64,000 bases of DNA from Magnolia sinica (Eukaryota; Streptophyta; Magnoliopsida; Magnoliales; Magnoliaceae). The position numbers were made by a program, and so were the translations under genes. The notes under the pieces were generated by a model. It made no database searches. It was given only the letters and a program-made list of their open reading frames with translations, and was not told where the DNA came from. The DNA is taken from positions 62,049,443 through 62,113,442 of the forward strand of contig NC_080585.1 of NCBI RefSeq assembly GCF_029962835.1, read 5' to 3'. Below are positions 2,441 through 52,032 of the stretch, piece by piece. The first letter of the stretch is position 1, and every line of letters starts with the position of its first letter.

Positions 2441-2865
2441 ACTCACGCTAATTGACAAACTAGGGTACTTTCAATCACTTGACTGAAGAGTCTGCTATCT
2501 TCGAAATGGTGAACCCGGTGTCCAACAACAGAAATACCAGTGTACCTTGGATGTGGGCAATGACTTTGAAGGCTAGCAGTACTGCAACCATAGATTCAGA
2601 TGCTTCGGCTGCAAGGGCATGTACTTAAGCTTGTTGAGGATGATTGGGTTGCGCTGTCATTGGCCATTGAGGCAGCCTATATTGAGGTGTGGGAGGTCGG
2701 TTGAATGGATGTGTCGGTGGCGCAGATCGTAGAAGTGGAGCCGATATAACTTGTGGTGGCTGGCGGTTGATCTTTTGAGGTGGCGTAAAGCCGTTGTCCC
2801 TCATCTTGTTAAAACAAAAGGGCTCTATATGGCCCGTCTTGTTACAATAAACGCACTAAAGATTA
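2441..2865 (-). pseudogene. Ty3 Tekay gag C-terminus (zinc knuckle) and protease, minus-strand element
   Basis: Read on the minus strand, this begins at the left edge of the CACTA insertion. It gives an intact CCHC knuckle (CVYCNKTGHIEPFC, CX2CX4HX4C), then FNKMRDNGFTPPQK, a Pro-rich linker and a retroviral-type aspartic protease start with the active-site triad LLLDTGFT. The same protein order occurs on the plus strand at 27895-28265. It is the continuation of the gag reading at 15794-16813, with the CACTA element between them. The protease is broken by stops soon after the DTG motif, and homology ends near 2441. Gag packages element RNA and the protease matures Gag-Pol in the particle. This copy is dead. 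Confidence 0.8.
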
Positions 2866-3190
2866 CATTACCAGAAAAAGGGGCAAAGGCTACGGATAAA
2901 ATCCATAGCCTTAGACCTATGGCTACAGTTCTAGTCCGTAACTAGTCCATAGCATGACCGTAGTCGTAGGTGCTGTAACAAGAGATCTAAAACCTATAGC
3001 TACGGATTTAATCTGTAGCTATATGTTACAACAGCTATAGATATAATCCATAGCAATTATATCTGTAGCGATAAGTATAAACAATTATGGATATTATTTA
3101 TAGCTAAAAGTCCGTAGCAATATGCCAAATTTAATTATGGCTACAGCTGTCGGATTACCGGCTATGGTTAATATCCATAGCTATTTCATA
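2866..3190 (+). repeat. Left TIR and subterminal repeats of the CACTA element
   Basis: The TIR at 2866-2896 is followed by about ten short copies, in both orientations, of a word close to GCTACGGATTTAATCCGTAGC (for example near 2890-2915, 2998-3020, 3045-3060, 3160-3182). In CACTA elements, arrays like this bind the element's DNA-binding protein; that role is known for the family and not shown here. Confidence 0.8.
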
Positions 3191-3204
3191 CATTAAAAAA
3201 TATA

Positions 3205-3412
3205 TATATAATCATTTCTTCATTCAATTACCACCTGCATAATCATTCATTCATTCCATTACAATCATTCATTCATTCAATTACAATCAATTACAATCCT
3301 TCATTCAATCAATTATAATTACAATCAATTACAATCCTTCATTCAATCAATTACAATTACAATCAATTACAATCCTTCATTTAATCAATTACAATTACAA
3401 TTACAATAATGC
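3205..3412 (+). repeat. Minisatellite of CAATTACAATC/CCTTCATTCAAT units
   Basis: About four imperfect units of roughly 45-50 bases built from CAATTACAAT and CCTTCATTCAATCAATTA lie between the CACTA subterminal repeats and the SMC4 fragment. No coding content. Confidence 0.75.
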
Positions 3413-3558
3413 TGAAAATACAAATCTTTAGCCTCATTAGAGAACTTTGCTCGACTTCACCCTGAAATTTCAATGATAAAGAATTGAAAGAGAAGATATA
3501 TTTTAATGGTATGATATTTTTTTCACAAGTAAATAAGCCTTTTTCAGCCATCACTCAC

Positions 3559-3735
3559 CTGAAGAATCAAAAACCGATTATTGTCCAAGTCCACTCCTTT
3601 TCCTTTCAATTTCTTAGTGACCTCTGTAATATTACTTCCATGGTCATTTATGTAGTACTTTGAAAAGTTGTCTCAAAATGCAACTCTAGTAATGACAAAG
3701 TCACTTCTTGCAACAGCTTCGTATATTCCATCATC
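3559..3735 (-). pseudogene. SMC4: Captured exon of SMC4 (condensin core subunit)
   Basis: A 177-base exon on the minus strand is bounded by a TTTGTAG acceptor and a CAG|GTGAGT donor and reads 59 codons in one frame. Key stretches are SDFVITRVAF, SKYYIN and KGKGVDLDNNRFLILQ, the conserved end of the SMC4 N-terminal ATPase region just before the GEVEQ segment. SMC4 is an ATPase of the condensin complex that compacts chromosomes. One in-frame TGA replaces the Arg codon of the VAFRDN motif (CGA to TGA). I see no neighbouring SMC4 exon, so this is a one-exon fragment inside the CACTA element. Confidence 0.9.
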
Positions 3736-3894
3736 CTACAAATAGCCATGGCATTCATAAATCAGAATGACCATTAGGGGAAAGAAAAATAAAGTGAAAG
3801 AAGTGCATCATGTATAACCATTTTCTTTTCTTTTCTTTCTTAATGAATTAATAAAAACTCAAAGAGGAATGAAATTGACACAAAAGGAATGGTC

Positions 3895-3987
3895 TCACCA
3901 TATGGTTTGTAGGGCCAAAATAAACGTCTGGACGATTTTCGCAAGGAAGACCATCGGTATCCACAAGTACCCACTTCCTAAGGAATG
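3895..3987 (-). other. Unidentified exon-like segment inside CACTA
   Basis: On the minus strand this reads without a stop through KWVLVDTDGLPCEN and RPDVYFGPTNHM, then a possible donor ATG|GTGAGA. A near-identical 20-base word (GGAATGGTCTCACCATATGG) occurs at both edges of the segment, which suggests a small direct duplication. The residue pattern looks like real protein, but I do not recognise the family. Confidence 0.35.
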
Positions 3988-3999
3988 GTCTCACCATAT

Positions 4000-6900
4000 G
4001 GTTTAAGTTATAAGTTTATGTTAATGTCGTAGGTTATAGGTTTAGGTTTAGGGATTTGAGAATATATTTACGTTTTAGGTTTAGGTTTAGCTTTTACATT
4101 TAGGTTAAGGTTACAAGTTTAGGTTTAGGTTATAAGTGTAGGTTATAGGTTTAGGTTTAGGTTAGGTTATATGTTAAGGTTTAGGGAATTGAGTTTAGGT
4201 TATAGGTTAAGGTTTAGGTTTAGGTTATAGGTTTAGGTTTAGGTTATAGTTTTGGGATTTGAGAATAGGTTTACGTTATAAGTATAGGTTTAGGTTACTT
4301 TGTAGGTTATAGGTTTAGGTTATAAGTTTATGTTAATGTTATAGGTTATAGGTTTAGGTTTAGGTTTAGGGATTTGAGAATACATTTAGGTTTTAGGTTT
4401 AGGTTTAGGGATTTGAGAATACATTTAGGTTTTAGGTTTAGGTTTAGGTTTTAGGTTTAGGTTATAAGTTTAGGTTATAGGTTTAGGTTTAGGTTATAGC
4501 TTTAGGGAATTGAGAATAGGTTAAGGTTTAGGTTTAGGAAATCGAGTTCGGGTTCAGGATCGGGTTTAGGTTTGGGTTTTCAAGTTTAGGTTTAGGTTTA
4601 GGTTAGGGAGTTGAGATTAGGATTAGGTGTAGGTTTAGGTTTAGGGATTTGAGAATACATTTAGGTTTTAGGTTTAGGTTTAGGTTTTAGGTTTAGGTTA
4701 TAGGTTTAGGTTTAGGTTTAGGTTAATGTTAGGTTATATATTATAATTTTAGGTTATAGGTTATAGGTTAAGGTTTAGGTTATAGGTTTTGGTTTAGGTT
4801 AAGGTTATAGGTTTAGGTTTAGGTTTAGGTTTAGGTTAAGGTTTAGGTTTAGGTTTAGGTTATAGGTTATATGTTATAGGTTATAGCTTTTGGGAATTGA
4901 GAATAGGTTAAGGTTTAGGTTTAGGAAATCGGGTTCGGGTTCGGGATTAGGTTTAAGTTTGGGTTTTCAAGTTTAGGTTTAGGTTTAGGTTAGGGAGTTG
5001 AGATTAGGATTAGGTGTAGGTTTAGGTTTAGGGATTTGAGAATACATTTAGGTTTTTGGTTTAGGTTATAGGTTTAGGTAATAGGTTTAGGTTTAGGTTT
5101 TAGGTTTAGGTTAAGGTTTGGTTATAGGTTATAAGTTTAGGTTATAGGTTATAGGTTATAGGTTATATGTTAAGGTTTAGGTTATAGGTTTTGGTTTAGG
5201 TTAAGGTTATAGGTTTAGGTTTAGGTTTAGGTTATAGGTTTAGGTTAGGTTTAGGTTTAGGTTTAGGTTATAGGTTATAGCTTTAGGGAATTGAGAATAG
5301 GTTAAGGTTTAGGTTTAGGAAATCGGGTTCAGGTTCGGGATCGGGTTTAGGTTTGGATTTCAAGTTTAGGTTTAAGCTTAGGTTAGGGAGTTGAGATTAG
5401 GATTAGGTGTAGGTGTAGGTTTGGGTTTAGGGATTTGAGAATACATTTAGGTTTTAGGTTTAGGTTTAGGTTTTAGGTTTAGGTTTAGGTTTAGGTTAAC
5501 GTTAGGTTAGAGGTTATAAGTTTAGGTTATAAGTTATAGGTTATAGGTTAAGGTTTTGGTTTAGGTTAAGGTTATAGGTTAAGGTTTTGGTTTAGGTTAA
5601 GGTTATAGGTTTAGGTTTAGGTTAAGGTTTAGGTTTAGGTTTAGGTTATAGGTTTAGGTTAAGGTTTAGGTTTAGGTTATAAGTTATATGTTATAGGTTA
5701 TAGCTTTTGGGAATTGAGAATAGGTTAAGGTTTAGGTTTAGGTTATAAGTTATATGTTATAGGTTATAGCTTTTGGGAATTGAGAATAGGTTAAGGTTTA
5801 GGTTTAGGAAATCGGGTTCGGGTTCGGGATCGGGTTTAGGTTTGGATTTTCAAGTTTAGGTTTAGGTTAGGTTAGGGAGTTGAGATTAGGATTACGTGTA
5901 GGTTTAGGTTTAGGGATTTGAGAATACATTTAGATTTAGGTTTTACGTTTCGGTTTAGGTTATAGGTTATAGGTATAGGTTTTGGGATTTGAGAATAGGT
6001 TTAGGTTAAGGTTAAGGTTTAGGTTTAGGGATTTGAGAATAAATTTAGATTTAGGTTTTACGTTTCGGTTTAGGTTATAGGTTATAGGTATAGGTTTTGG
6101 GATTTGAGAATAGGTTTAGGTTAAGGTTAAGGTTTAGGTTTAGGTTATAGGTTATAAGTATAGGTTTATGTTTAGGTTAAGGTCTAGGTTTAGGTTATAG
6201 GTTTAGGTTAGGGAGTTGAGATTAGGATTAGGTGTAGGTTTAGGTTTAGGAATTTGAGAATACATTTAGGTTTTAGGTTTAGGTTTTGGGATTTGAGAAT
6301 AGTTTTAGATTATAAGTATAGGTTTAGGTTGGGTTATAGGTTAAGTTTAAGGATTTGAGTTTAGGTTATAGGTTTAGGTTATAGGTTATGGGTTATAGGG
6401 TTTAGGTTAGGGTTTAGGTTATAGGTTTAGGTTATAGGTTTAGGTTTAAGTTATAGGTTTAGGTTTAGGTATAGGTTTTAGGTTTAGGTATAGGTTTATG
6501 TTATAGGTTATAGGTTATATGTTTAGGTTAAGGTTTAGGGATTCAGGTTCGGGTTCGGGTTCGGGTTTGGGTTCGGGTTTAAGTTATAGGTTTTGGTTTA
6601 AGTTATAGGTTATAGGTTTAGGTTAAGGTTTAGGTTTAGGTTATGGGTTTTGGGATTTGAGAATAGGTTTAGGTTATAAGTATAGGTTTAGGTTGGATTA
6701 TAGGTTAAGGTTTAGGTTTAGGTTATAGGTTTTGGGATTTGAGAATAGGTTTAGGTTATAAGTTTAGGTTTAGGTTGGGTTATAGGTTAAGGTTTAGGTT
6801 TAGGTTATAGGTTTTGGGATTTGAGAATAGGTTTAGGTTATAAGTTTAGGTTTAGGTTGGGTTATAGGTTAAGGTTTAGGTTTAGGTTATAGGTTTTAGG

Positions 6901-7850
6901 ATTTGAGAATAGGTTTAGGTTATAAGTTTAGGTTTAAGTTTAGGTTATAGGTTTAGGTTAAGGTTTAGGTTAAGGTTATAAGGTTTAGGTTAGGGTTTAG
7001 GTTATAGGTTTAGGTTTAAGTTATAGGTTTAGGTTTAGGTTTAGGTTTTAGGTTTAGGTAAAAGCTTAGGTTATAGGTTATAGGTTATATGTTTAGGTTA
7101 AGGTTCAGGGATTTGGGTTCGGATTCGGGTTTGGGTTCCGGTTTAGGTTATAGGTTTTGGTTTAGGTTATAGGTTATAGGTTTAGGTTAAGGTTTAGGTT
7201 TAGGTTATGGGTTATGGGATTTGAGAATAGGTTTAGGTTATAAGTATAGGTTTAGGTTGGGTTATAGGTTAAGGTTTAGGTTTAGGTTATAGGTTATAAG
7301 TATAGGTTTATGTTTAGGTTAAGGTCTAAGTTTAGGTCATAGGTATAGGTTTTGGGATTTGAGAATAGGTTTAGGTTAAGGTTATAAGTATAGGTTATAG
7401 GTTAAGGTTTAGGTTTAGGTTTAGGTAATCGGGTTTGAGTTCGGGATCGGGTTTAGGTTTGGGTTTAGGTTTTAGGTTCTAGGTTATAGGTTTAGTTTAT
7501 AGGTTAAGGTTTGGGTTATAAGTTAAGGTTTAAGTTATAGGTTATAGGTTATAAGTATAGGTTTAGGTTTAGGTTAAGGTCTAGGTTTAGGTTATAAGTA
7601 TAGGTTTTACGATCTGAGAATAGATTTAGGTTAAGGTTATAAGTTTAGGTTAAGGTTATAAGTATAGGTTATAGGTTAAGGTTATAGTTTAGGTTAAGGT
7701 TATAAGTATAAGTTATAGGCTTAGGTTTAGGTTTATGTTTAGGTTAAGGTTTAGGTTATAGGTTTTGGTTTAGAGTTAGGTTTAGGTTATAGATTATAGG
7801 TTATAGCTTTTGGGAATTGAGAATAGGTTTAAGGTGTGGCTCAGGTTAAG
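4000..7850 (+). repeat. ~3.8 kb degenerate TTTAGG/TATAGG array with ~390-base higher-order units
   Basis: Almost the whole interval is GGTTTAGG, GGTTATAGG, GGTTAAGG and GGTTTTAGG words with interspersed GGGATTTGAGAATA and GAAATCGGGTTCGGG spacers. The spacer GAAATCGGGTTC(G/A)GG recurs near 4538, 4926, 5318 and 5808, that is at steps of about 390, 390 and 490 bases, so a higher-order repeat is present in the middle. The core word is the plant telomere unit TTTAGGG minus one G, with the G-rich strand on the plus strand throughout. It has no coding content and lies inside the CACTA element between the SMC4 fragment and the other captured exons. Confidence 0.9.
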
Positions 7851-7857
7851 GGCCTGC

Positions 7858-8180
7858 AAATACAGATATAAACACGGCCTATCCAAATGGTCAGGCCCCT
7901 CCAATGCTATCCATAGGAAATGGACAACTTCATCATGGTCATAACAACAGTTCTCACCTTCCAGGGATCCCTGCTCATCCGGATAGCTCTGACGCACATC
8001 CAGGTCTGCTCCATTAATTTTGAGTAAATACATAAACACGGCCTGTCCAAATAGCCAGGCCCCTCCAATGTTGTCCAAGGAAATGGACAGTTTTATCATG
8101 GTCATAACAGTGGTTCCCACCTTCCATAGACCCCCGGTCATCGGATAGCTCCGACACAATCTAGGTCAGTACAAATACAT
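7858..8180 (-). repeat. Two tandem ~164-base units within CACTA
   Basis: ACACGGCCT(A/G)TCCAAAT starts at 7872 and again at 8036. The flanking ~150 bases (CAGGCCCCTCCAATG, GGAAATGGACA, TCATGGTCATAACA, TCACCTTCCA) match between the copies. The duplication makes a 121-codon minus-strand ORF that I regard as accidental. Confidence 0.75.
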
Positions 8181-8968
8181 TTTCATGATTCAAAGAAGGG
8201 AACTTGAGGGTTTTCCTTACCTTCCATTGTATGCTTCCAAGGTGCAGATGGCCCCTGAAACACACATACATCCTGGGAATCACTTCTCAAAACCGCAGAC
8301 TATTTTTTTTAGAATTCGTTCATCTCACCTGAAAACCTGTCACATAATGAATAACTGTAACCACAATGATAACTATTGTGAATGCACTATGATGAAAAAA
8401 TTATTATTATTATAGATAACTGTAATTACAACATAGATATCATGCACGCGATATCACATAATGTATTGTTTGATGAACTACACATGTGCATTCTTGATAA
8501 GAGATGTATCAGATGCTTAAATCTGAAATATGCAGCTCCAATCCTCCCACATGCAACATCCACCTGAAAAAATGCGCATAACCGTCATGCTTGAGTAATC
8601 AATACAGGAATATACAAGTAAAACCATAAAACCAGAGATACTCACTGCATTTTTAGGATCTCCTCCATAGTTAACAATCTCATTCTAAAGCCCTTCTCCC
8701 TCCTCCTTTACCCGGGCTTGGGACTGGCAATGCAAGGAGTTGCATTGGCAGAGTTAAAAAAGGTCCTTCCAGATAAAAGGGTGACTCTGGAATCAAGCAA
8801 AAGTCCTAAGGAAAATGGCAATGACAATTTTCCTTAGCATGTTAAAATACAAATAATGAAGATTTAAACCACAAGTTGAAAACTTTCGGTTATGCAATTT
8901 AAAATGAAATGGCACCATGGCAGAAAAAGAAGATAGGATAATGTAGGATGACTAATGATAATACATAC
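8181..8968 (-). other. Intron-like captured DNA, no recognised exon
   Basis: Several splice-like boundaries occur on the minus strand. One example is a segment at about 8217-8251 bounded by TTTCAG and GTAAGG. Others are a CAG near 8568 and a GCA|GTGAGT near 8648. The enclosed short readings match no family I know. It may hold further small captured exons. Confidence 0.35.
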
Positions 8969-9008
8969 CACATCTCAACTGGCAAGAGTAGCATACATTG
9001 CAATGAAC
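8969..9008 (-). pseudogene. PFK: Captured exon of plant ATP-dependent 6-phosphofructokinase
   Basis: A 40-base minus-strand exon between a TTGCAG acceptor and GTATGT donor reads FIAMYATLAS, stop, DV. This is the conserved plant PFK block that follows GRYSG and precedes the exon with LIPE. PFK phosphorylates fructose 6-phosphate in glycolysis. The stop TGA sits exactly at the Arg (CGA) of LASRD. Adjacent PFK exons are not visible. The match is short but specific, and the splice sites fall where a plant PFK exon ends. Confidence 0.75.
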
Positions 9009-9117
9009 CTGCAAGCAATAAAATGAAATTAAAAATTACAATGGACATACATTTTGCATTACCAATCCATAAAAACAAAGAGGTAATCTGAAATTTGAAA
9101 GTTCTTAAGACATACAT
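9009..9117 (-). other. Linker between PFK and SAMHD1-like fragments
   Basis: Only about 109 bases of AT-rich, intron-like DNA separate two exons of unrelated genes. No further coding match is seen. Confidence 0.4.
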
Positions 9118-9178
9118 CTAAAATTCAAAATTGCAACCAAGGCCACAAACTCGGCAATCTCGTTCAATATAGTCAAAC
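9118..9178 (-). pseudogene. VEN4-like: Captured exon of a SAMHD1-like HD-domain dNTPase gene (copy A)
   Basis: On the minus strand, after a TTTACAG acceptor, it reads FDYIERDCRVCGLGCNFEF. This matches the plant SAMHD1 homologue block FDYI.RDCRACGLGCNF. Family members are HD-domain triphosphohydrolases that lower dNTP pools. The downstream donor is damaged (TAG|AT where CAG|GT is expected). A second, more diverged copy of the same exon lies at about 12590-12657. Confidence 0.8.
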
Positions 9179-10069
9179 CTGTAAATTAATGATTTCCTTA
9201 AAACTAATATCATAAGTTTCAGGATAAGGAACCAATTATAAAATGACATATCATGAGAAGAGGTAAAATGACTTACATTGCCCACAGAGATATCATGGCT
9301 GGCTAGTTCCATTTCCTGGTCAAAACATAATATGTTATGGCCACAAATTGAATGTGTAGACAATAGCAAAATCTGAGTTCCTTAAGATGGTGTTTAGATG
9401 TGTAGACAACTCACTTAACACAGTTCATGTATTGCATAATGGTTAAAGAAATTAAGCATGCAGTAGTAGTTGCTCAACACGTCAAGGAAAGTTCAAAAGA
9501 AAGTCATATTCCAGCGAAACCACGATAGGAAGAAATTTCCATCACAAGCATTGATTAAAATGTTAAAACACACTAACAAAATACAAAGAACTATGAAATT
9601 AGTAGAGGAAATGATGCACTTCTGCAAGAAAGAAAAAGAAAAAAAAATCCATCACAAAAGAATAAGTACAACAACTTGACAAAACAAGACATCTTATCAA
9701 CACGCATAATCCTCCACAAACATCCACTCCCATCCAAGCACAAAAAATTTTAAAATGCAATCAAACTTCAGCTAGAGTACTCAATATTTTGAAACATCGC
9801 ATTTCCTGCAAAAATTTCCAGCATAAAAATGGAACACATATCCCTTAGAAAGAACACACACAAGAGAGAGAGAGAGAGTAAAGAAATAGATTCTACCAAC
9901 GGTAGGAGAAAAAAAATCACAACCATTACAAGAAAACTGCTCATACCACATAAATACATCCTCATATTATCATTGAAGCAAGCAGAAAAAATTTAAAACT
10001 AAAAAGACAAACACATGGAAAAAGTTGCATCATGTGAAAATGGCTGAAAGACAAAGCAAAATCAGTTAC
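9179..10069 (-). other. Intron-like captured DNA, no recognised exon
   Basis: AT-rich DNA. A small exon-like segment near 9279-9319 reads EMELASHDISVGN between AG and GTAAG on the minus strand but is not recognised. A short (GA)n run lies near 9862-9878. Nothing else can be supported. Confidence 0.35.
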
Positions 10070-10138
10070 CTTCACAACAAGCAGGGGATAAGTCACAACA
10101 GTCGACCTAAGTTTAACAACAGCTCCAAGAAGAAATAC
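10070..10138 (-). pseudogene. PXN: Captured PXN exon (second of two)
   Basis: A 69-base minus-strand exon (acceptor TTGGTTAG, donor AAG|GTAACT) reads 23 codons without a stop: VFLLGAVVKL then STVVTYPLLVVK. The PxxxVK-type signature in TYPLLVVK is the mitochondrial-carrier motif as found in plant peroxisomal NAD carrier PXN/PMP36 proteins, which exchange NAD across the peroxisomal membrane. It follows the exon at 10240-10347 in correct gene order, with the intron retained. The expected next exon (SRLQAKQ) is not seen. Confidence 0.85.
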
Positions 10139-10239
10139 CTAACCAAAGAAGCACCATAGAACGTGAAAACACCAAAATGAATGTAAAAGCATTGCAACAG
10201 CAACAACGGGAGATGCAAAACACGAGATCATTGGTCTAC

Positions 10240-10347
10240 CTCCAATGCAGTCACTCCTTTTGTGGCTTTCTTACTCAAGGTGCATCTTTCCTTCAGCTGC
10301 TTCAGCATGGTCTAATACAGCATGAATTGTATGGAAGGGTTGCTTAC
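10240..10347 (-). pseudogene. PXN: Captured PXN exon (first of two)
   Basis: A 108-base minus-strand exon (acceptor TTCGCAG, donor GAG|GTAGAC) reads VSNPSIQFMLY, stop, TMLKQLKERCTL, then KGVTALE. This is the block that precedes VFLLGA in PXN-like carriers. Phase and order agree with the exon at 10070-10138, and the 101-base intron between them keeps GT and AG ends. A single in-frame TAG replaces the residue after Tyr. Confidence 0.85.
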
Positions 10348-11095
10348 CTGCGAACAACCAAAAATCCTCTGCTTGAGCATCAGTATAACATTATACAAGG
10401 GGCTTATAATCCTCCGCTTGAGCATCAATATAACATTTTGCAAAACATGAGAATGGCCATAGCTTAAAAACCAGAAAAGTCAAACTAGAGTTTAGTCAAA
10501 GAGTAGGTTAAGTTCTATTGAGTCTTGAAGACCATGAATTTTTTGAGTTATCAAACTATGATGTACTAGAACTCCCAATATTCAGATGATAGGGCCTGAC
10601 ACCTACAAATTGAGTTTTCACAACAAACATACAATAAATTCATTATATTTGACTAACTAAATCATACAAACATTCAGCTCAAAAAATGTCCATCAAAGTA
10701 AATGGATTACATAACCAAAAAAAAAAAGTTTTTATTTAAAAAATGCACTACAGAACTATTCCAATCACATAAGATCTTAATAGGCTATGAGCAATACATT
10801 TCCATGGTTCTTTCTAAGATCTAGGAACTCAAAGACAACTGCATTGATATAAACTAACATTCTCCTAGTTGACTCAACACTTCTGAAACAAAAACTGCCA
10901 AGACTCGGCAGAGTCACAACAAAAGGCAGATGTGAGTTTCCATGGAGCGGCTATTTTGAAGGGGGGTATGTCTAACCAGACATGGGAAAATCCTGATCCA
11001 AAGCAAAGTACTTCTGGTCATTGGCAAAATCAGTTCAGAAGAGGATGGCAATTAACTTTAACCACTGCCTAGCAATTTCCAAAAGACATACATAC
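10348..11095 (-). other. Intron-like captured DNA between PXN and UBP12/13 fragments
   Basis: Near 10360-10450 a ~45-base unit (CTTGAGCATCA(A/G)TATAACATT) is tandemly duplicated. An A run lies near 10718. I find no exon, although a further UBP12/13 exon might have been expected here. Confidence 0.4.
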
Positions 11096-11161
11096 CTTGT
11101 ATATCTTGTGACAAAAAGCCTCAAGCTGTTAAAGCTCGGCATTGGGATGAGACAGCTCAAC
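11096..11161 (-). pseudogene. UBP12/UBP13: Captured UBP12/13 exon (third of three)
   Basis: A 66-base minus-strand exon (acceptor TTGCAATAG, donor AAG|GTATGT) reads VELSHPNAEL, stop, QLEAFCHKIYK. It matches the C-terminal ubiquitin-like region of plant UBP12/13 deubiquitinases right after the exon ending DLKTK. The in-frame TAA sits at an Arg position of the parent protein (consistent with CGA to TGA to TAA, though the route is inference). Confidence 0.88.
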
Positions 11162-11409
11162 CTATTGCAGAATGCAGGAGAGAGTCAGTTGATTTTCTTC
11201 TAAGGGCACCAAAATAGCAACATTCTATCAGTCAATACATGAGAAGCATCCCGATTGCATATCAATTGGGTTTCAATAAACTACTAGCTTAGAAAAGCAG
11301 TTGTCCTCTTTTAAGAAAGAGTGGGATAATAGGCTCATGCATTAAGGAAACCTTGAAGAAGAAGAGGACCACATCGAATAGAAGTGCATAAATAGTTACA
11401 GAAATTAAC

Positions 11410-11481
11410 CTTGGTTTTCAAGTCGTTGATTACATCCCCTACAGTACTCTGTTCGGGCAATCTAATAGTGTGAATAACCAC
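11410..11481 (-). pseudogene. UBP12/UBP13: Captured UBP12/13 exon (second of three)
   Basis: A 72-base exon with intact TTTTCAG acceptor and AAG|GTTAAT donor reads 24 codons without a stop: VVIHTIRLPEQ, then STVGDVINDLKTK. UBP12/13 are nuclear/cytosolic ubiquitin-specific proteases involved in flowering, immunity and hormone signalling. Here only the C-terminal ubiquitin-like part is present, so no catalytic activity could be made. Confidence 0.92.
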
Positions 11482-11556
11482 CTGAAAAGAAAGTAAAAGA
11501 CACCTAAGTTTGTACTTGATCCAGAATTAGATGACTCGCATGGTTTGGGGTCTCAC

Positions 11557-11658
11557 CTCATCTTTAGTGGAGTGATGGAAAGCAACTTTCAAAGTTTTCA
11601 AGCCTTGCAATTCTGGCAAAGGAATGTCCAACACTTCATAATTCAAGATATCGGAAGT
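11557..11658 (-). pseudogene. UBP12/UBP13: Captured UBP12/13 exon (first of three)
   Basis: A 102-base exon (acceptor GGTGCAG, donor GAG|GTGAGA) reads 34 codons without a stop, including NYEVLDIPLPELQGLK and KVAFHHSTKDE. Order, phase and introns (11482-11556 and 11162-11409) match a contiguous genomic piece of UBP12/13. The capture was therefore of genomic DNA, not cDNA. Confidence 0.92.
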
Positions 11659-12362
11659 CTGCACCAAAAGAAATGAACTTGGAAAATTCCAGTTATTCAT
11701 GACATGTTATTGGATATAATTTCTCAGATATAGTAGCATGACCAAAACAGTAAGACAAGCAGAAGGCACTGTGATGGACAACTTGGTTGTAGTGGACCAG
11801 CATGTCAGACAGATGTTCTACACCCTGGAACTTGATGGGTTGGGGCTTAGGCTGTTAAGAGTAACAGTTGTGAGAAGTAAGGCTAATTTTTGTTGGATCA
11901 TCCAAGCCAAGTAAACCATATAAGATCCATAATACAGTGAAAATATAGCATCTACCCATTTTATGGTATCCATTACAGAAGCACAATTATTGAAGGAGAG
12001 TTGAATGTATTCATGGTCTTGGAACATACATCTTTGGAACCCCATACACTAAACTACAAATGGCTACAAAAGAAAACAAATGGAGAAATGCTCGAGCGGG
12101 CTATATGTACAGGTACCTTGTCTGTAGATAGCTACAGTCAGACACGAGGTATACATATGGGATGATGTGTTATGATTCTTCAACCCTGTAGTCATTTTTA
12201 AGATGAGAAAAATGCAACCAAAGATGTAAGAGGTGTCTAAATAAATTACAAATCCATGCAGCAGACTTATTCCCATTTAAATGTCTGAAAGAAAGGTCAA
12301 AATTGAAATTGATAGGTTTTAATGCCAAGAACAGAAGATACTCAGTGTGTACATGAGAGAGA

Positions 12363-12410
<48 letters not shown>

Positions 12411-12585
12411 TACAAATGTAGATTTTTGCAAGTAGAAATAAATTAGCACAAATGGCCTTGAAATTACTACATGGTCTTCTTTGAAACAATTGCCAAACTT
12501 GGGTTCTTTGTCTCAATCAAACAAAGAGACTGAGAGCAAGGCTTTTCATACCTACATAAGCAACAGAAATTACACAAATTTTATG
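11659..12585 (-). other. Intron-like captured DNA with a (GA)n run
   Basis: No exon recognised. A GA dinucleotide run occupies about 12369-12408. The ORFs across it on the minus strand are Ser/Leu runs produced by the simple repeat and are not genes. Confidence 0.4.
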
Positions 12586-12589
12586 AAAG

Positions 12590-12657
12590 TAGTGGACAAT
12601 ACTCGCAACAGAATCAACATGGCCACAAGCTCGGCAATCTCGTTTGTAAGAAACAAA
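12590..12657 (-). pseudogene. VEN4-like: SAMHD1-like exon fragment, diverged copy B
   Basis: On the minus strand, after a GGCTCAG acceptor, it reads FVSYKRDCRACGHV. The core RDCRACG and the nucleotide word CGAGATTGCCGAGCTTGTGGCC match copy A at 9118-9178, but the 3' half has diverged or been replaced. It lies downstream (in the minus sense) of the short exon at 12863-12904, as in the parent gene. Confidence 0.6.
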
Positions 12658-12862
12658 CCTGAGCCCACCATCTTTAAGAATGAGATCCAAACATATTAAA
12701 TATTTTGTGCCAATTTGTGTTGGATGAATTGAAAATGTATTCAGTTTCGGCAAAATGGTATTTTCAGGACAGCTATGGTCTATAAATTATCACCTCGTAT
12801 TGACAAAACACCACTGAACAAGAAGCGATGAAAAAAGAATGCAGAGGTTTAGAGCATAATAC

Positions 12863-12904
12863 CTATGGCAATGATCTTCTTCCTATCAATGCCACCATTT
12901 CTAC
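12863..12904 (-). pseudogene. VEN4-like: Possible SAMHD1-like exon preceding the FDYI block
   Basis: A 42-base segment between TTTACAG and GTATTA on the minus strand reads GRNGGIDRKKI. Plant SAMHD1 homologues have a ...NGRNGIDVDK... block just before FDYI.RDCRACG, and the fragment sits in the matching order relative to 12590-12657. The match is short, so it is a tentative assignment. Confidence 0.5.
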
Positions 12905-13269
12905 CTGTAAAATCATATTATAGAGAAGATCAATAAAACATAAAATCATTTTAATGTAATAATACCACTAACGCCCATTTTCTTACACTGAAATATTTGG
13001 TTTCTTGCCAGTAAAAGAAAAATGAATCAATCAGCTATTGCAGTAGCAATTTTTACAAGAGATATGCTGAAGGAGACATTACAAGAAGTACAAATGTATC
13101 AACCTTAACAAATATCAAGGTAAATGTAAACTCAAAAAAGCAAAGAAAAGAAGAAACAATATCCCAGATATGAAGATTGTAAGAAATGATGAGTACATAA
13201 CTACCACAACAAATCACACTGACAAATAGCCATAAAGCGACATTGCTTAAAACCCAGAAAAATTCATAC

Positions 13270-13325
13270 CCTTTTTTGGAATTCAATCCAGTTCCCATAG
13301 TAGTACCACCCTGCACAAGCTGCTC
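13270..13325 (-). pseudogene. FUM1: Captured fumarase exon fragment
   Basis: The minus strand reads FEQLVQGGTTMGTGLNSKKG up to a GG|GTATGA donor. It matches the fumarase block QLAQGGTAVGTGLNTKKG, which lies between active-site regions of class II fumarate hydratase, the TCA-cycle enzyme converting fumarate to malate. The 5' boundary of the exon is uncertain (a CAG lies just before GGTGGTACT, but the reading QLVQ upstream is also family-like). It is the most 5' recognisable fragment in the minus-strand series. Confidence 0.8.
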
Positions 13326-13535
13326 AAAAGAAAGATTTAATGGGTTGATAAAGGCACACATCTTCTACCAACCAATCAATAGGCAAAACCACTTGACAAA
13401 TTACACAACAAAAAGCAAGAAAGCCCATCTCAAGCAAAATTAGAGAAATAAAATGAATATGACCTTCCTATACATAATGGATCATTTTTTCTGTAATGGC
13501 TATTTTGGCAAGTGTTTTACAAGTGAATATTCAGC
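13326..13535. other. AT-rich linker, nothing recognised
   Basis: No coding match or repeat of note. Confidence 0.3.
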
Positions 13536-13680
13536 TTTCTACCTGTAAGTAACTTACAGGTCATCCAAACAGAAAAACTAACTTACCTGTAAGTGACTTA
13601 CAACTTACATCCAAACAGATTACCTGTAAGTAACTTTCACTTGTAAGTGACTTACAGGTAAGTCACTTACAACTTAAAAG
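13536..13680. repeat. Foldback (MITE-like) cluster of ACCTGTAAGTNACTTACAGGT
   Basis: 13541-13561 is a perfect palindrome with 10-base arms around one base. 13641-13672 is a perfect hairpin with 15-base arms (TTGTAAGTGACTTAC and its complement) around AG. Partial copies lie between, with CATCCAAACAG words. It could be a small hAT-like MITE or a nested pair; no clear target duplication was found. Confidence 0.7.
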
Positions 13681-14348
13681 AGCGAATGTTACATGCGGCA
13701 CATGGTTACATTTGAACCAGTTAGCATTCACATCAACATAGTTACATTTGAACCTATTAGCATTCGCATCAACAGTCAATCCATTTTTCCAACTAATTGT
13801 CAAAAAATGAGGTAGATTCAAATCTCAAGTAGACTACACCAAAGGAAAGATGGTAATTGAACACCCACCGTTAAAAACTTTTTAGGGCAATATAGTTTTG
13901 GATTAAGATGATATTTATGTTTTCCCTTCATCTAGATCTATCTAACACAAAGCAACATGTTGGATAGAAAATAAACATTACACTGGATCTTTTTTTTTAA
14001 ACCAAAACTTATATAACATGCCATAATGCAAATTATTTTAATTCATGCATAATGAAAATGTAAATAATTACTACTCATTTACAGTCAACTACACTTGCAA
14101 CCAATCAAACAATTTTTCATGGTTAGCATGGCTTGTTTCACCACAATTTTTAAGGGTGCAGACCACACCATAAACAATAGACCTCACTACAGATGGAAGC
14201 ACCTCCCAAGGTTGACTTTAATCCCACAATGCAAATGACTAGAGACACACAAATGTTATTGTGTATATGACAACAGATCCAAAAACACACCTTTAAAAAA
14301 AATTCAAAAATCACAAAACAAGGGATTCTTATGACCTTAGGAAGTATT
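13681..14348. other. Non-coding DNA with a short direct duplication
   Basis: GTTACATTTGAACC(A/T)(G/A)TTAGCATTC(A/G)CATCAACA is present twice near 13706-13775. Otherwise it is AT-rich DNA with no gene signal. Confidence 0.35.
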
Positions 14349-14351
14349 TAA

Positions 14352-14763
14352 GGGCCTGTTTGGCCAGGAAGCTTGGATGGGATTGGAAGGGATTAAAAGG
14401 GATTGGAAGATAGATCCCAGATTGACCAGGCATGCCAAACAGACACGGGATCTTGATCCCGGGATGTTACAATCCCATGGATCTTAAGACAATCCACTGA
14501 CATCACCATCATTACCTTTAAATCTCATCCAATCCACCCTAATCCCTTTAAAATTGCTTAGGACATGTTTGGTTCAAGGGATTGAAAGGGATTGGAAGGT
14601 TTAATCCCGGGATTGGTCGGGCATCCCAAACAGACTGGAAATAGCAATCCTGGGATATAGCAATCCCATAGATCTTGCACCAATCCACTGACACGACTAT
14701 CATTACCTTGAAATCCATACAATCCACTCTAATTCCATCCAATCTACCCGGCCAAATAGGCCC
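14352..14763. mobile_element. Tourist/PIF-Harbinger-like MITE, internally dimeric
   Basis: The termini GGGCCTGTTTGGCC and GGCCAAATAGGCCC are inverted repeats with one mismatch, flanked on both sides by TAA (14349-14351 and 14764-14766), the target duplication typical of PIF/Harbinger. The interior holds two related halves, each with GGGATTG.AAGGGATT.., CAAACAGAC, ATCCCGGGAT and CAATCCACTGACA. This suggests a tandem dimer of a ~200-base unit. Confidence 0.75.
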
Positions 14764-14769
14764 TAATGG

Positions 14770-15186
14770 TGGGCGTTCAATCACCACAGTTTCCTGTGGT
14801 GTGGTCCACCTAAGATTTAGCCCTAAAATGAGCTGGAAAAAATGACTGGCCCGCATACACATATTATGGAGGAGCCCACAAAGCATTTTTAGATTTCAAA
14901 AATAGAGAGAGGGGAATGCAGATTGAAGGATTGAAAGATTGAGCATAGGGATTGAAGGATTGAGCATCCAAACACAACAGATTAGAGAAACAGATAAAGA
15001 GAGAGAAAGAGAGAGAAAGAGAGAAACTAACCATGCTTCTTCTTCTTCTCCTTCTCCTTCTTCTTCTCCTTCTTGCAGCAAAAGAGGTTTTTGAAAACAG
15101 AGAGAGGGGAATGCGGCCAAGAGACAGGGAAAGAGGGTGAGGGAGAGCGGGAGATCGAGAGAGGGCAAGGGAAAGAGAGAGACTGA

Positions 15187-15229
<43 letters not shown>

Positions 15230-15665
15230 ATGGTTTTCATCTGTGCGTGGGAGAAAATGGCAGACGGGAAGGGTTTTATTTTTGGGAGGAGGTTTGGATT
15301 TTGGAGGGGTGCGTGACAGACGGCTCCTTGGGGACGTTGGGTTTTAGGACCGTGGGGCCCACTGTGATGTATTTCATATATCTACTCCGTCCATTAATTT
15401 TAAATTATTATTTTAAGTGCTGATATAAAAAAATGAGTTAGATTGAATCTGTAAGGAGACCACACAACATATTAATAGTAAATTTTTAATTTTTATTATT
15501 TCTTACGGTGTGGTCCACTTAGACATTTGATCTATATAATTTTTAGGCTCATGCACTAAAATTATATATCAGAATTGTTAGACAGCATAGATCAAACACA
15601 TATATTCCAATGGACCCCATGGATCCCCTTAAGCACCATCTATGTTTAATATGGTTTAGGCGAGG
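14770..15665. other. GA-rich and AT-rich non-coding segment at the CACTA right side
   Basis: It contains (GA)n at 15191-15222 and GA-rich tracts near 14900-15190; on the minus strand these are CT-rich, like a plant 5' UTR or promoter. Further right are GTGGGGCCCACTGTGATGTA and ACGGTGTGGTCCAC words, which are also frequent in the LTR-2 family. It may be where minus-strand transcription through the captured exons starts, but no TATA-initiator pair can be assigned with confidence. Confidence 0.35.
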
Positions 15666-15669
15666 AGGT

Positions 15670-15793
15670 ACGCTTTAGCTACAGATCACTTAGGCTTTAG
15701 CTACGAATTAAATTCGTAGCTATATTGCTACGGATTTAATCCATGGCTAAAATCATTCAAAGTCCATAGCCTTTGCTCGATTTTTTGGTAGTG
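15670..15793 (-). repeat. Right subterminal repeats and TIR of CACTA
   Basis: TTTAGCTAC(A/G)GAT..., GCTACGAATTAAATTCGTAGC and GCTACGGATTTAATCC copies precede the terminal TTTTTTGGTAGTG. The words match those of the left end. Confidence 0.8.
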
Positions 15794-16813
15794 TTGGATC
15801 GCCTCTGCTGGACTGGTGGAGCCAGTTGTTTGGGAGGCGAATTTGCACGCGGCCTCTTGTCGAGAAACGGTTGGTTCGATAATTCAGGCGGAGGCCTTAG
15901 GCCCATCGGCGTGCGTGTCCGAGAGTCTCTCTCACCATCCTACTCAGCTCGCAGGGACATGTTAACTAGCTCAGCATAATTGGGAATGCTAGTGCAATAC
16001 ATCTTGGTTTCGATATCAGCCCGAATCCCTCTGAAAACTACCGCATTCTCATCGACTCATTTACCAAGATCAAAGGAGCATATCTGGCTAGCTCTGTGAC
16101 CTAGTTTTCATATTCTGCCACTGTCATCCCCCCTTGTCGAAGGCAAAGAAACTCGCCCACCTTTTCATTGCAGTAGGTGAGGGAAAATTATTTTCCATGA
16201 AAATGGTCTTGAACTCATCCCAAGTCCACGCAAATCCTATGGGAACGGTTCATAGGTTACTATCCTAGTAAAGACTAGCCTCCTTCTCAAACATATACGT
16301 AACCAGCTCGACTTATTCTACTTCAGTACAGTGCAATGGCCTCAACATCTTAGATATGTGATCCAACCAGTACTCAGCCTCCTCGGGTTTATGAGTACCG
16401 GCAAAAGTGGGAGGACGAAGGCACTGAAAGTGCTCAAATAGGCCACTTATGGGCATAGCCCCAGTAGGTTGTACAAGTGGCATCGACGGGGCCGCATTCA
16501 TGTTCTCGGCAATGGCACCTGCAATAGTAGCCAAAACTTGTTGTTGTTGCTGCATTAGGAGCATCATCTGCTCCAACCTATCAGGGGGAGAGGCCGCCTG
16601 TGGCACGTGTGGTGTCGACGTTGACGCACGGTTTTGATCCAGAACCGGTGGTGCACTAGGTGTTGGCCCATTCGTGGCCGGCTGTGAATCTAGCATTGTC
16701 TCAATACCTGGGCCCAAACTGGGGTCTGTGTGGCTATCGCTCGGGGGAGGTGCTCCATCAATCGATCCGCTGGGTGGGAGATGTGTCATATTTTGAGTGG
16801 TTTTACGAGGCAT
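15794..16813 (-). pseudogene. Ty3 Tekay gag, N-terminal two thirds (minus-strand element)
   Basis: It starts at ATG 16813 (MPRKTTQNMTHLPP...), followed by a low-complexity N-terminus with Pro/Ser and a glutamine run (MMLLMQQQQQ). The Retrotrans_gag core follows (GLFEHFQCLRPPTFAGTH, EEAEYWLDHISKMLRPLHC). The open frame ends at 16313, but homology continues with stops and frameshifts to 15794, where the CACTA element cuts it inside the segment QQRRS before the zinc knuckle. The knuckle resumes at 2865. The same protein is on the plus strand at 26863-27900. Gag forms the virus-like particle. Confidence 0.85.
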
Positions 16814-49427: not shown

Positions 49428-49497
49428 CTAATAGCTCGCTCTTATTGCTTTTTATTTGGATTTAATTCTTGAGTTAATGATCTAAGCTATATATAAG

Positions 49498-52032
49498 ATG
49501 TCAAATTTTGATAGCCTATCAGTCACTAGGCCTCCAACCTTTGATGGCTCCAACTATGCCTATTGGAAAGCCAGGATGAGGATCTTCCTCAAATCAATGG
49601 ATGAGAGTGTTTGGCAAGCCACAATGACTGAATGGAACCCACCTACCACTGAAGTGACTGGTATTGATGGTTCAAAATCAATGAGAGTAACACTATATTT
49701 CTCATGGACCACCCTTCAAAAAAATGAGAGTAGTGCCAATGCAAAAACACTAAATCCAATCACTTGCGCAATATCACCGGATGAGTTCAAAAGAATCATA
49801 TCCTGTGATACTGCAAAGCAAGCCTGGGATATATTAGAAATGACACACGAGGGTACTACAATTGTTAAAAAATCTAAAGTCCAACTCCTCACAACCAAAT
49901 TTGAAGAAATTCATATAGAGGAAAATGAAATGTTTATGGACTTTTACACTAGATTAAATGACATTGTAAACTCAATGTGGGGTCTTGGCGATAAAATCCC
50001 AGAAGGTAAAGTGTGTGTAAAGATACTACGCTCACTTCCTGAACGGTTCAACTCTAAGGTAACCGCAATCCAGGAACTTCGTGATACGGACAATATGAGG
50101 GTAGAAGAACTAGTTGGTTCTTTACAAACCTATGAGTTACACTTTAAAGCTCCTAAAAGTAAATCCATCGCTCTTAAATCTTCTAAAGAAAACTCTGATT
50201 CTGAAGATGATATGGCTCTTTTAGCAAAAAAGTTTTACAAGATTTTCAAGAGTAAAAAGAGGGTTGATTTTCAAAAATCAAATGATAAGAAAAGATCAAA
50301 ACCCAAATCTAAAACTTGGAATTCTTTGAAATATAGTCAATGTTACAACTGCCAAGAATATGGGCATTTAGCAGACAAGTGTCCTAAAAAGGACAAACCC
50401 AAAAAGAAGGGTATGTTGGCTACTTGGGATGAATCATCTGATTCTGAAGCTTCTTCTAAATCAGAAGATTCTGAAACCGAGTTAGGCAGGGAAGTTAAAG
50501 CCCTTATGACTCTAGCCAAATTCACTTTTTCAAATCATGATGATTCAACTAGCAAAGAAAATCTGAATAGTGATTATGAAAATGAAGATGATCTTCAAGA
50601 TGCTTACAATGCCCTATACAAGGAAAGTTGTAAAATTGCTGCCAAACTTAAACTTCAAAAAGAAAAGTTTTTTAAACTCAAAGAATGTTTTGAATCTCTT
50701 GTTTTAGAAAAATCCCAAATTTCAAATTGTTTTGAAAAATCAAAATGTGATTTAGAATTCAAAACCTCCCTAATTAAAAATCTAAAATCTGAAAATGAGA
50801 GACTTAAAAATGAAGTATCTTCTCTTCTGAGTTTAAAGGATACATGGAGGTATGCCCAAGGAAATCCAAAGTTAGAAAAACTTTTATCTGTATCTAAAAA
50901 ATGTGGCGACAGATCCGGATTAAGCTATGATAAAAATGTTCCTCCTAAACAAAAGTATACTTCTCCTAAGTTTGTGAAAAGAGAGTCCTCTAACTCAAAA
51001 GGGAAAAATACTAGTCAAAGTTTTTCTAAAAATACAAAAGCTTTTCAAAAACCTGGAGGTAGCTATGTCAACTTCAAAAATCAAAATAGAAACCCACTAG
51101 CTGAAAAGATAGTGGATTTACTCAAGGAACTCTTAAAATCTAACTCAGTAGGTCATTCTTATAACAACAGTCAGAAGAAGACCAACTATACTACTAAACC
51201 CAAAACAGTTCTGAAATGGGTTCCTAAAGTTACCTGCTTGGTTGCCCACACCGCTTTCAAAGCAACAAGCCATTCAAAGTGGTACCTAAATAGTGGATGC
51301 TCCAGGCATATGACAGGTGACAAGGCCTTATTCACCGATCTTAAAGATATGACTGATGGGTCAGTTACTTTTGGTGATGGAAGCAATTGCAAGATTATGG
51401 GCCAAGGTATAGTTCAACTCTATAACCTTCCTTTGTTTAAAAATATTTTGTTTGTTGAAGGACTAAAACATAATCTTCTAAGCATATCACAAATTTCTCA
51501 GAATAATCATAGTGTTCGGTTTTCTAATCAAGGTTGTGAGATTCTAAACAACAAGGGGTCAGTAATACTAACTGGACGTAGAACGTCTGAAAACTGCTAT
51601 ATTATTAGTGAATCCAACTCATCTAATCAATCGTGTTACATGGTCAATATAGACGAGACTGATTTGTGGCACAAATGTCTTGGACATGTACACTACAGAA
51701 ATCTATATAGATTGAGCAAACGAGAACTTATAAGAGGTCTACCCAAACTACAAAAGTTAGATAAAATATGTGGTGAATGCCAAATTGGCAAACAAACAAG
51801 GAACTCACACAAAAAGGTGAATTCCAATACCACATCAAGACCACTCGAGCTTCTCCATATGGATCTTGTAGGACCTACCAGGACGGAAAGTCGAGGTGGC
51901 AAAAGATATATCTTGGTAATAGTAAATGACTTTACCAGATATACATGGGTTGTCTTCTTAAGGGACAAATCAGAAACCTTTGAAGAAGTGAAAAAGGTTC
52001 TTAAAAGGATTCAAACTGAAAACGGTTCTTAA
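49498..52032 (+). CDS. SIRE gag-protease-integrase (5' part of Gag-Pol), 844 codons
   Basis: ATG 49498 sits at the end of the leader. Domains in order: N-terminal copia gag (PPTFDGSNYAYWKARMRIFL, ~13-32) and a UBN2-like region. The zinc knuckle CYNCQEYGHLADKC (~281-294) is intact. A long Lys/Ser coiled region follows. The protease reads WYLNSGCSRHMTGD (~595-608), where the catalytic Asp of DSG is Asn. The pre-integrase block is LWHKCLGHVHYRNLYRLSKR (~720) with the HHCC finger CGECQIGKQTR. The integrase core starts LLHMDLVGPTRTESRGG (first Asp). A TAA at 52030 ends the frame shortly before the second catalytic Asp. It is the longest ORF in the window. The protease mutation and stop make it defective. 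Confidence 0.93.
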   Translation: MSNFDSLSVTRPPTFDGSNYAYWKARMRIFLKSMDESVWQATMTEWNPPTTEVTGIDGSKSMRVTLYFSWTTLQKNESSANAKTLNPITCAISPDEFKRIISCDTAKQAWDILEMTHEGTTIVKKSKVQLLTTKFEEIHIEENEMFMDFYTRLNDIVNSMWGLGDKIPEGKVCVKILRSLPERFNSKVTAIQELRDTDNMRVEELVGSLQTYELHFKAPKSKSIALKSSKENSDSEDDMALLAKKFYKIFKSKKRVDFQKSNDKKRSKPKSKTWNSLKYSQCYNCQEYGHLADKCPKKDKPKKKGMLATWDESSDSEASSKSEDSETELGREVKALMTLAKFTFSNHDDSTSKENLNSDYENEDDLQDAYNALYKESCKIAAKLKLQKEKFFKLKECFESLVLEKSQISNCFEKSKCDLEFKTSLIKNLKSENERLKNEVSSLLSLKDTWRYAQGNPKLEKLLSVSKKCGDRSGLSYDKNVPPKQKYTSPKFVKRESSNSKGKNTSQSFSKNTKAFQKPGGSYVNFKNQNRNPLAEKIVDLLKELLKSNSVGHSYNNSQKKTNYTTKPKTVLKWVPKVTCLVAHTAFKATSHSKWYLNSGCSRHMTGDKALFTDLKDMTDGSVTFGDGSNCKIMGQGIVQLYNLPLFKNILFVEGLKHNLLSISQISQNNHSVRFSNQGCEILNNKGSVILTGRRTSENCYIISESNSSNQSCYMVNIDETDLWHKCLGHVHYRNLYRLSKRELIRGLPKLQKLDKICGECQIGKQTRNSHKKVNSNTTSRPLELLHMDLVGPTRTESRGGKRYILVIVNDFTRYTWVVFLRDKSETFEEVKKVLKRIQTENGS

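Follow-up and report, generated by a model that had tools for sequence, protein, structure and literature searches.

The stretch of DNA analysed here, called the window below, is C13:62049443-62113442 (64,000 bp) of the 1.84-Gb Magnolia sinica genome, and positions 2866-15793 of it are one CACTA insertion within a gypsy gag. This insertion is very probably a non-autonomous member of a large CACTA family, moved in trans, built stepwise from unspliced fragments of about seven genes, and now decaying as a passenger. A preliminary description, drawn up from the letters of the window, had proposed a Pack-CACTA element at this place; its terminal inverted repeats (TIRs), the empty site, the 3-bp target copies of its relatives, and the presence of donor genes in the same genome all bear this out. 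Donors or nearest relatives were found for six of the seven genes, those of PFK and SAMHD1 by search table only. The features are collected in Table 1.

The termini are inverted repeats, with CATTACCAGAAAAAGGGGCAAAGGC, a mutated CACTA, at 2866 and ..GGTAGTG at 15793. Subterminal repeats are present at both ends by direct reading, and a count of the motif in the whole window gives 7. The flanks are gypsy gag on the minus strand (named by eye) and, when joined with one 3-bp copy dropped, align across the junction, gapless there, to the gypsy copy at 28088-27691 with 73% identity. The best 40 of 2,215 candidate places were scored in the left-end search. In six of the seven other left ends compared (L002-L008) the CACTA terminus is intact, L002 having a changed first base, and four other paired elements are flanked by GAA/GAA, TGT/TGT, CAT/CAT, and AAT/AAA, exact in all except the C12 element, which is off by one base. 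The ungapped empty-site junction, the TIRs, and the 3-bp targets in relatives therefore identify a CACTA insertion.

Table 1. Positions of the element, its ends, and its gene fragments in the window
Feature	Position	Strand	Basis
Whole Pack-CACTA element	2866..15793		TIR pair; ungapped junction versus second gypsy copy; collinear C5 sister
Left target copy, TTA	2863..2865		flank reading
Right target copy, TTG, one mismatch versus left copy	15794..15796		flank reading
Left terminal and subterminal repeat region, GCTACGGATTTAATC-type repeats	2866..3190		direct reading; left-end search
SMC4 exon, 177 bp, AG/GT borders	3559..3735	-	PDB SMC4 match, E=1e-12
Degenerate telomere-like tandem array, TAGGTT / TTTAGG units, 3.8 kb	4030..7802		shared by the left-end loci L002-L008
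PFK fragment with 40-bp exon 8969-9008	8820..9009	-	genome search rows
SAMHD1-like fragment with exon 9118-9178; its left edge is uncertain (8991-9022)	9003..9346	-	genome search rows
PXN fragment: exon 10240-10347, intron, exon 10073-10138	9973..10364	-	collinear with L034
UBP12/13, four exons (11783-11912, 11557-11658, 11410-11482, 11096-11163) and introns	11086..11912	-	Pfam USP7_C2; nearest gene L026
Second, weak SAMHD1-like exon piece	12590..12657	-	about 45 bp in common with 9118-9178
LRK10-like receptor kinase fragment, exon 12863-12904	12817..13033	-	L084, L085, L087 on C2
Fumarase fragment, exon within 13270-13325	13055..13361	-	L081 on C14
Right subterminal repeats and TIR	15650..15793		direct reading; end comparison

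The cargo exists as a unit elsewhere in the genome. A sister element on C5 (75.427-75.439 Mb, with SMC4 at 75426926 and its right end at 75438702) repeats the arrangement of the window: SMC4, PFK/SAMHD1, PXN, UBP, kinase/fumarase, then the right end. The two differ by a Kimura two-parameter distance (K2P) of 0.041 over 6,345 aligned bases of 6.4 kb, and the sole gap of at least 40 bases is 45 bases long. This bears directly on the suggestion that the fragments are separate small insertions (miniature inverted-repeat transposable elements [MITEs], Pack-MULEs, or Helitron pieces) nested in an otherwise empty CACTA element. Nested MITE-like repeats are indeed present at 13540-13680 and 14350-14764, and many of the blocks occur elsewhere without the others, as nesting would predict; yet the C5 sister has the same order with no larger gap in the 6.4 kb compared, and the PXN edges, the sole donor edges examined, fall within introns of the donor and lack a terminal repeat on visual inspection. 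Separate nested insertions are thus extremely improbable and, given the collinear sister, were rejected. The preliminary description had offered scattered fragments absent from other copies as the finding that would count against it, and the C5 sister has the same collinear cargo. One of the two MITE-like repeats bears ends of the GGGCCTGTTTGG type along with a 191-bp internal duplication; the other is palindromic by direct reading.

This cargo was found in two of 12 paired places, these being the places in the top-scored lists where a right end lies within 30 kb of a left marker. The rows entered into the pairing were 40 of 50 for the left end, 40 of 73 for the right end, 17 of 19 for UBP, 13 of 43 for PXN, 20 of 45 for kinase/fumarase, 12 of 51 for SAMHD1/PFK, 150 of 151 for SMC4, and 150 of 150 for the transposase; those outside it were secondary pieces, short tails, donor genes, SAMHD1 rows on C9, or weak rows. 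All 18 UBP candidates were scored, as were the best 40 of 52 for PXN, of 114 for SAMHD1b/kinase/fumarase, and of 46 for PFK/SAMHD1, and absence is accordingly less firm beyond UBP.

Two of the fragments retain introns. For UBP12/13 the place, strand, and introns proposed earlier are correct, and the count of three exons is not, a fourth lying at 11783-11912; this exon contains a stop. The joined exon peptide matches Pfam USP7_C2 (1.3e-13). The nearest gene is at C18:53.306 Mb (L026), where two exon-bearing pieces are 81% and 86% identical and an exon-plus-intron piece is 74% identical; percentage identity is given here since the K2P of 0.45-0.50 to this gene, which was dropped, forces unalignable introns together. 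The PXN fragment is collinear, exon-intron-exon, with a gene at C4:114.46 Mb (L034) in which the exons are open, at a K2P of 0.043, and further PXN rows adjoin this locus. A stop is present in the PXN exon of the window and not at that codon in six other aligned copies. Because the UBP and PXN introns are present, collinear with those of the C18 and C4 genes, it was genomic, unspliced DNA that was captured, as had been claimed.

The nearest relative of the fumarase fragment, at C14:11.53 Mb (L081, K2P 0.10), is followed by the subsequent fumarase exons, while the window's own fumarase and SAMHD1 open reading frames (ORFs) have no match in Pfam. At C3:107574888 (L077) a fumarase fragment adjoins open frames that resemble, by eye, a leucine-rich repeat receptor kinase. 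The exon at 12863-12904, previously assigned to SAMHD1, matches a receptor-kinase locus together with its flanking introns (about 100 bp, score 141), which rules out the SAMHD1 reading; its K2P to loci at C2:127.7-129.0 Mb (L084, L085, L087) is 0.142-0.146. Peptides of these loci matched Pfam kinase (L085) and, below the cut-off, GUB_WAK_bind (L084, 0.00028). We take this piece to be the transmembrane exon of an LRK10-like kinase.

The other two SAMHD1 assignments fared unequally. The exon at 9118-9178 is mostly 90-94% identical to loci at C9:27-33 Mb, where SAMHD1 exon rows adjoin, some with a stop. The piece at 12590-12657 stands weakly, on about 45 bp in common with 9118-9178 (score 46; the highest score among 100 shuffles was 31). 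Eleven SAMHD1-like places were seen on C9:27.4-32.8 Mb and another on C19:4.99-5.00 Mb; at least seven of those on C9 have more than one exon row, and these places may be either genes or amplified copies. The PFK fragment is 95-96% identical in the genome search rows to C13:13.48 and 60.31 Mb, where PFK coding rows adjoin, with one TAG in each. A PDB search with the 20-aa PFK and SAMHD1 peptides gave no PFK or SAMHD1 match, and both names come from the genome rows. The genome queries for SMC4, PXN, SAMHD1, and PFK were Arabidopsis-like stretches.

The PFK, PXN, and fumarase exon pieces are where the preliminary description had placed them, on the minus strand, and its minimum of six unrelated host genes becomes about seven with the kinase counted (SMC4, PFK, SAMHD1-like, PXN, UBP12/13, kinase, fumarase). 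All named fragments are on the minus strand, the uniform orientation it had noted; a coin toss would give this in 1.6% of cases (2 x 0.5^7), a post hoc and uncorrected figure.

The SMC4 exon differs from the rest in that it belongs to the left end of the family and is not particular to the window element. A 45-base piece of the exon end is found at 172 genome sites with no more than 3 mismatches, which may include the true SMC4 gene, and at none for the reversed control. The best 150 of 314 SMC4 candidates were scored, and the listed rows are all at the same exon. Its place, strand, and identity are as first described. Pfam SMC_N gives 0.023 only, below the cut-off. The exon contains a TGA in the window, at a codon that is not a stop in seven other aligned copies.

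Blocks of the remaining cargo recur in other sets and orders. SMC4, PFK/SAMHD1, and PXN occur without UBP at C1:66.23-66.24 Mb; PXN and SAMHD1b/kinase are together at three loci (L029-L031); the PFK/SAMHD1 block is fused to a UBP-bearing block in L013; and kinase and fumarase are within another repeat in the eight loci compared (L062-L069). The piece 13031-13148 is on the opposite side of UBP in L014-L017, and 8683-8763 follows the PXN pieces in L038 and L039. UBP is also found within CACTA elements of different ends (CACTACAAGAAAA; L019, L023/L025). At five independent junctions, L038 and L039 counting as one, three share 4-5, 3, and 3 exact bases, while at least 3 shared bases are seen in 6.8% of 20,000 random pairs. 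Since the same blocks are found elsewhere in other combinations, exchange is as likely as direct capture, and the cargo was probably assembled in part through exchange among elements, rather than through seven direct captures by the window element. An ORF in L013 resembling an arginine methyltransferase (Pfam 0.0044, below the cut-off) was unconfirmed in PDB and was not used.

Divergence from the nearest relatives increases from PXN (0.043) to fumarase (0.10), kinase (0.14), and then UBP (exon pieces 81-86% identical). This order is compatible with serial capture, the older pieces possibly having come from paralogues since lost. The serial capture proposed earlier therefore holds as far as unequal divergence goes, and not as seven direct acquisitions, as the blocks recur at other loci in other orders. 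Taken together, the recurring blocks, the changed orders, and the junction bases argue for repeated deletion, repair, and exchange, with captures of different age.

No transposase was identified in the frames scanned within the element. Only two ORFs of at least 150 aa, stop to stop, lie inside it, both low-complexity by eye, and six inside ORFs, among them those of fumarase and SAMHD1, matched nothing in Pfam at 0.1; these cover part of the frames, and a decayed transposase could escape. Transposase_21 is abundant genome-wide, with 1,669 candidates, of which the best 150 were scored, and one of those scored lies 7.7 kb away from a C14 locus that carries UBP.

Several observations weigh against the history proposed in the opening paragraph. 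At its left terminus the window element reads CATTA instead of CACTA, and the target copies (TTA/TTG) differ at one base. Among the best 150 of 1,669 Transposase_21 candidates, none falls in the 12 paired elements, and a transposase-coding partner sharing these ends was not found there. The SMC4 donor gene was not found, being inseparable from element copies in the genome search, and the UBP fragment is so distant from its nearest relative in this genome that loss of the true donor is possible. At two of the five junctions, no more than 2 bases are shared.

It has to be considered whether the fragments are more than passengers. With all named fragments on one strand and the AG/GT borders mostly intact, a spliced minus-strand transcript might yield a functional chimeric RNA or protein, an exon-shuffling gene in the making, and Tgm-Express1 fragments are spliced into chimeric RNAs according to PMC1947982. 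A chimeric minus-strand RNA is possible, because most splice borders of the fragments are intact and pieces of Tgm-Express1 do enter transcripts in this way. However, introns and surroundings have diverged no faster than the exons. Divergence of the SMC4 exon among eight copies is 0.0667, against 0.0666 for its surroundings, and that of the UBP exon is 0.042, against 0.032 for the intron (16 copies; 290 and 198 columns). Among seven in-frame SMC4 copies (L006, with a 1-base deletion, was excluded) 39 of 46 changes are non-synonymous, with a non-synonymous/synonymous rate ratio of 1.46; on this ratio and the equal divergence, purifying selection on the exon was rejected. A selected product is unlikely because the exons evolve no slower than the non-coding sequence around them. 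With stops in the SMC4, PXN, UBP, and PFK pieces as well, a functional chimeric product is very improbable, and the fragments look like decaying passengers rather than a new gene.

The fragments might instead be sources of small interfering RNA against the donor genes, above all in relatives with inverted copies. Changes from C>T or G>A make up 31 of the 46 seen among the SMC4 copies, a pattern typical of methylated repeats, and the copies are probably methylated; these deamination-type changes are in keeping with such silencing, as is a palindromic CACTA element with a UBP piece in each arm at C1:9.099-9.104 Mb. That palindrome is, however, a different element from the one in the window, whose UBP exon pieces, at 81-86% identity to the nearest gene, are poor for targeting, and trans-silencing by these fragments is unlikely.

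The palindrome itself (C1:9098739-9104104, L025 and L023) is a 5,366-bp CACTA element with the TIR CACTACAAGAAAA and is near-perfect, with 47 mismatches in 2,661 aligned bases of its arms. Its flanks, ATT/TCT, are not matching target copies, and in the related loci L019-L021 the palindrome is not continued at the axis of symmetry. The element could give rise to a long hairpin RNA. More speculatively, and unlikely on present indications, a circulating pool of gene-fragment cassettes might be exchanged between Magnolia CACTA subfamilies, the palindromes making hairpin RNAs that feed small RNAs onto the family or the donor genes. Elsewhere in the window, the plus strand of 49486-53704 contains long gag-pol frames of copia type (named by eye).

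Under the history of stepwise assembly, the element would have been moved in trans by TNP2-type transposases. The SMC4 exon would have been taken early, in the ancestor of the family, and the other pieces added later, probably at different times, from unspliced genomic fragments, part of the cargo probably being gained from other CACTA elements, through exchange in the course of end-joining or gap repair. One or more ancestors already bearing this cargo would then have moved to give the C13 and C5 copies, which appear to be decaying as passengers, probably methylated.

The result is a largely donor-resolved record of one CACTA lineage gathering unrelated gene pieces: one exon at the left end of the family, others added in layers, and blocks exchanged among elements. 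With the magnolia genome it would be possible to count direct and second-hand captures, and to test why the orientation is uniform. For annotators there is a warning, as the repeated SMC4 exon end may mislead gene predictors.

Among the publication titles listed, none is on a Magnolia CACTA family, and the word CACTA is absent from the main text of the M. sinica genome paper (PMC10999834); PMC8978399 names a sequence from Magnolia ashei that has a Transposase_21 domain. Multi-gene Pack-CACTA elements and gene capture by CACTA elements are already known (PMC1947982, PMC8903248, PMC5105172, PMC4290129, PMC8978399, PMC2528002), and the window element is a further example of this kind, unusually rich and well resolved. 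Tgm-Express1 of soybean, as presented in PMC1947982, likewise holds unspliced fragments of several unrelated genes with their introns kept; it is 5.7 kb long with five sources and proven chimeric transcripts, whereas the window element is 12.9 kb with about seven sources, is of a large family, and might form a chimeric RNA. The Pack-TYPE account (PMC8903248) also describes non-autonomous CACTA elements that contain coding DNA of several loci, more loci being found in the larger ones, and proposes fusion of neighbouring insertions as the mechanism; to this the present case adds, in one host, donors of unequal divergence and an exon at many family sites.

The Tpn1 family of Ipomoea nil (PMC5105172) resembles that of Magnolia in its hundreds of non-autonomous copies with conserved ends, captured genic insides, and 3-bp targets. 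It is another family in another host, and a putative autonomous partner is reported there, unlike in the scored part of the Magnolia search. In wheat 3B (PMC4290129), captured segments common to two CACTA families were read as DNA exchange; the captures described there include expressed genes under selection, whereas the two Magnolia fragments tested give no sign of selection. The Chenopodium elements (PMC8978399) similarly combine captured gene fragments with tandem arrays, with one or a few gene fragments described per element, compared with about seven sources and a 3.8-kb telomere-like array in Magnolia.

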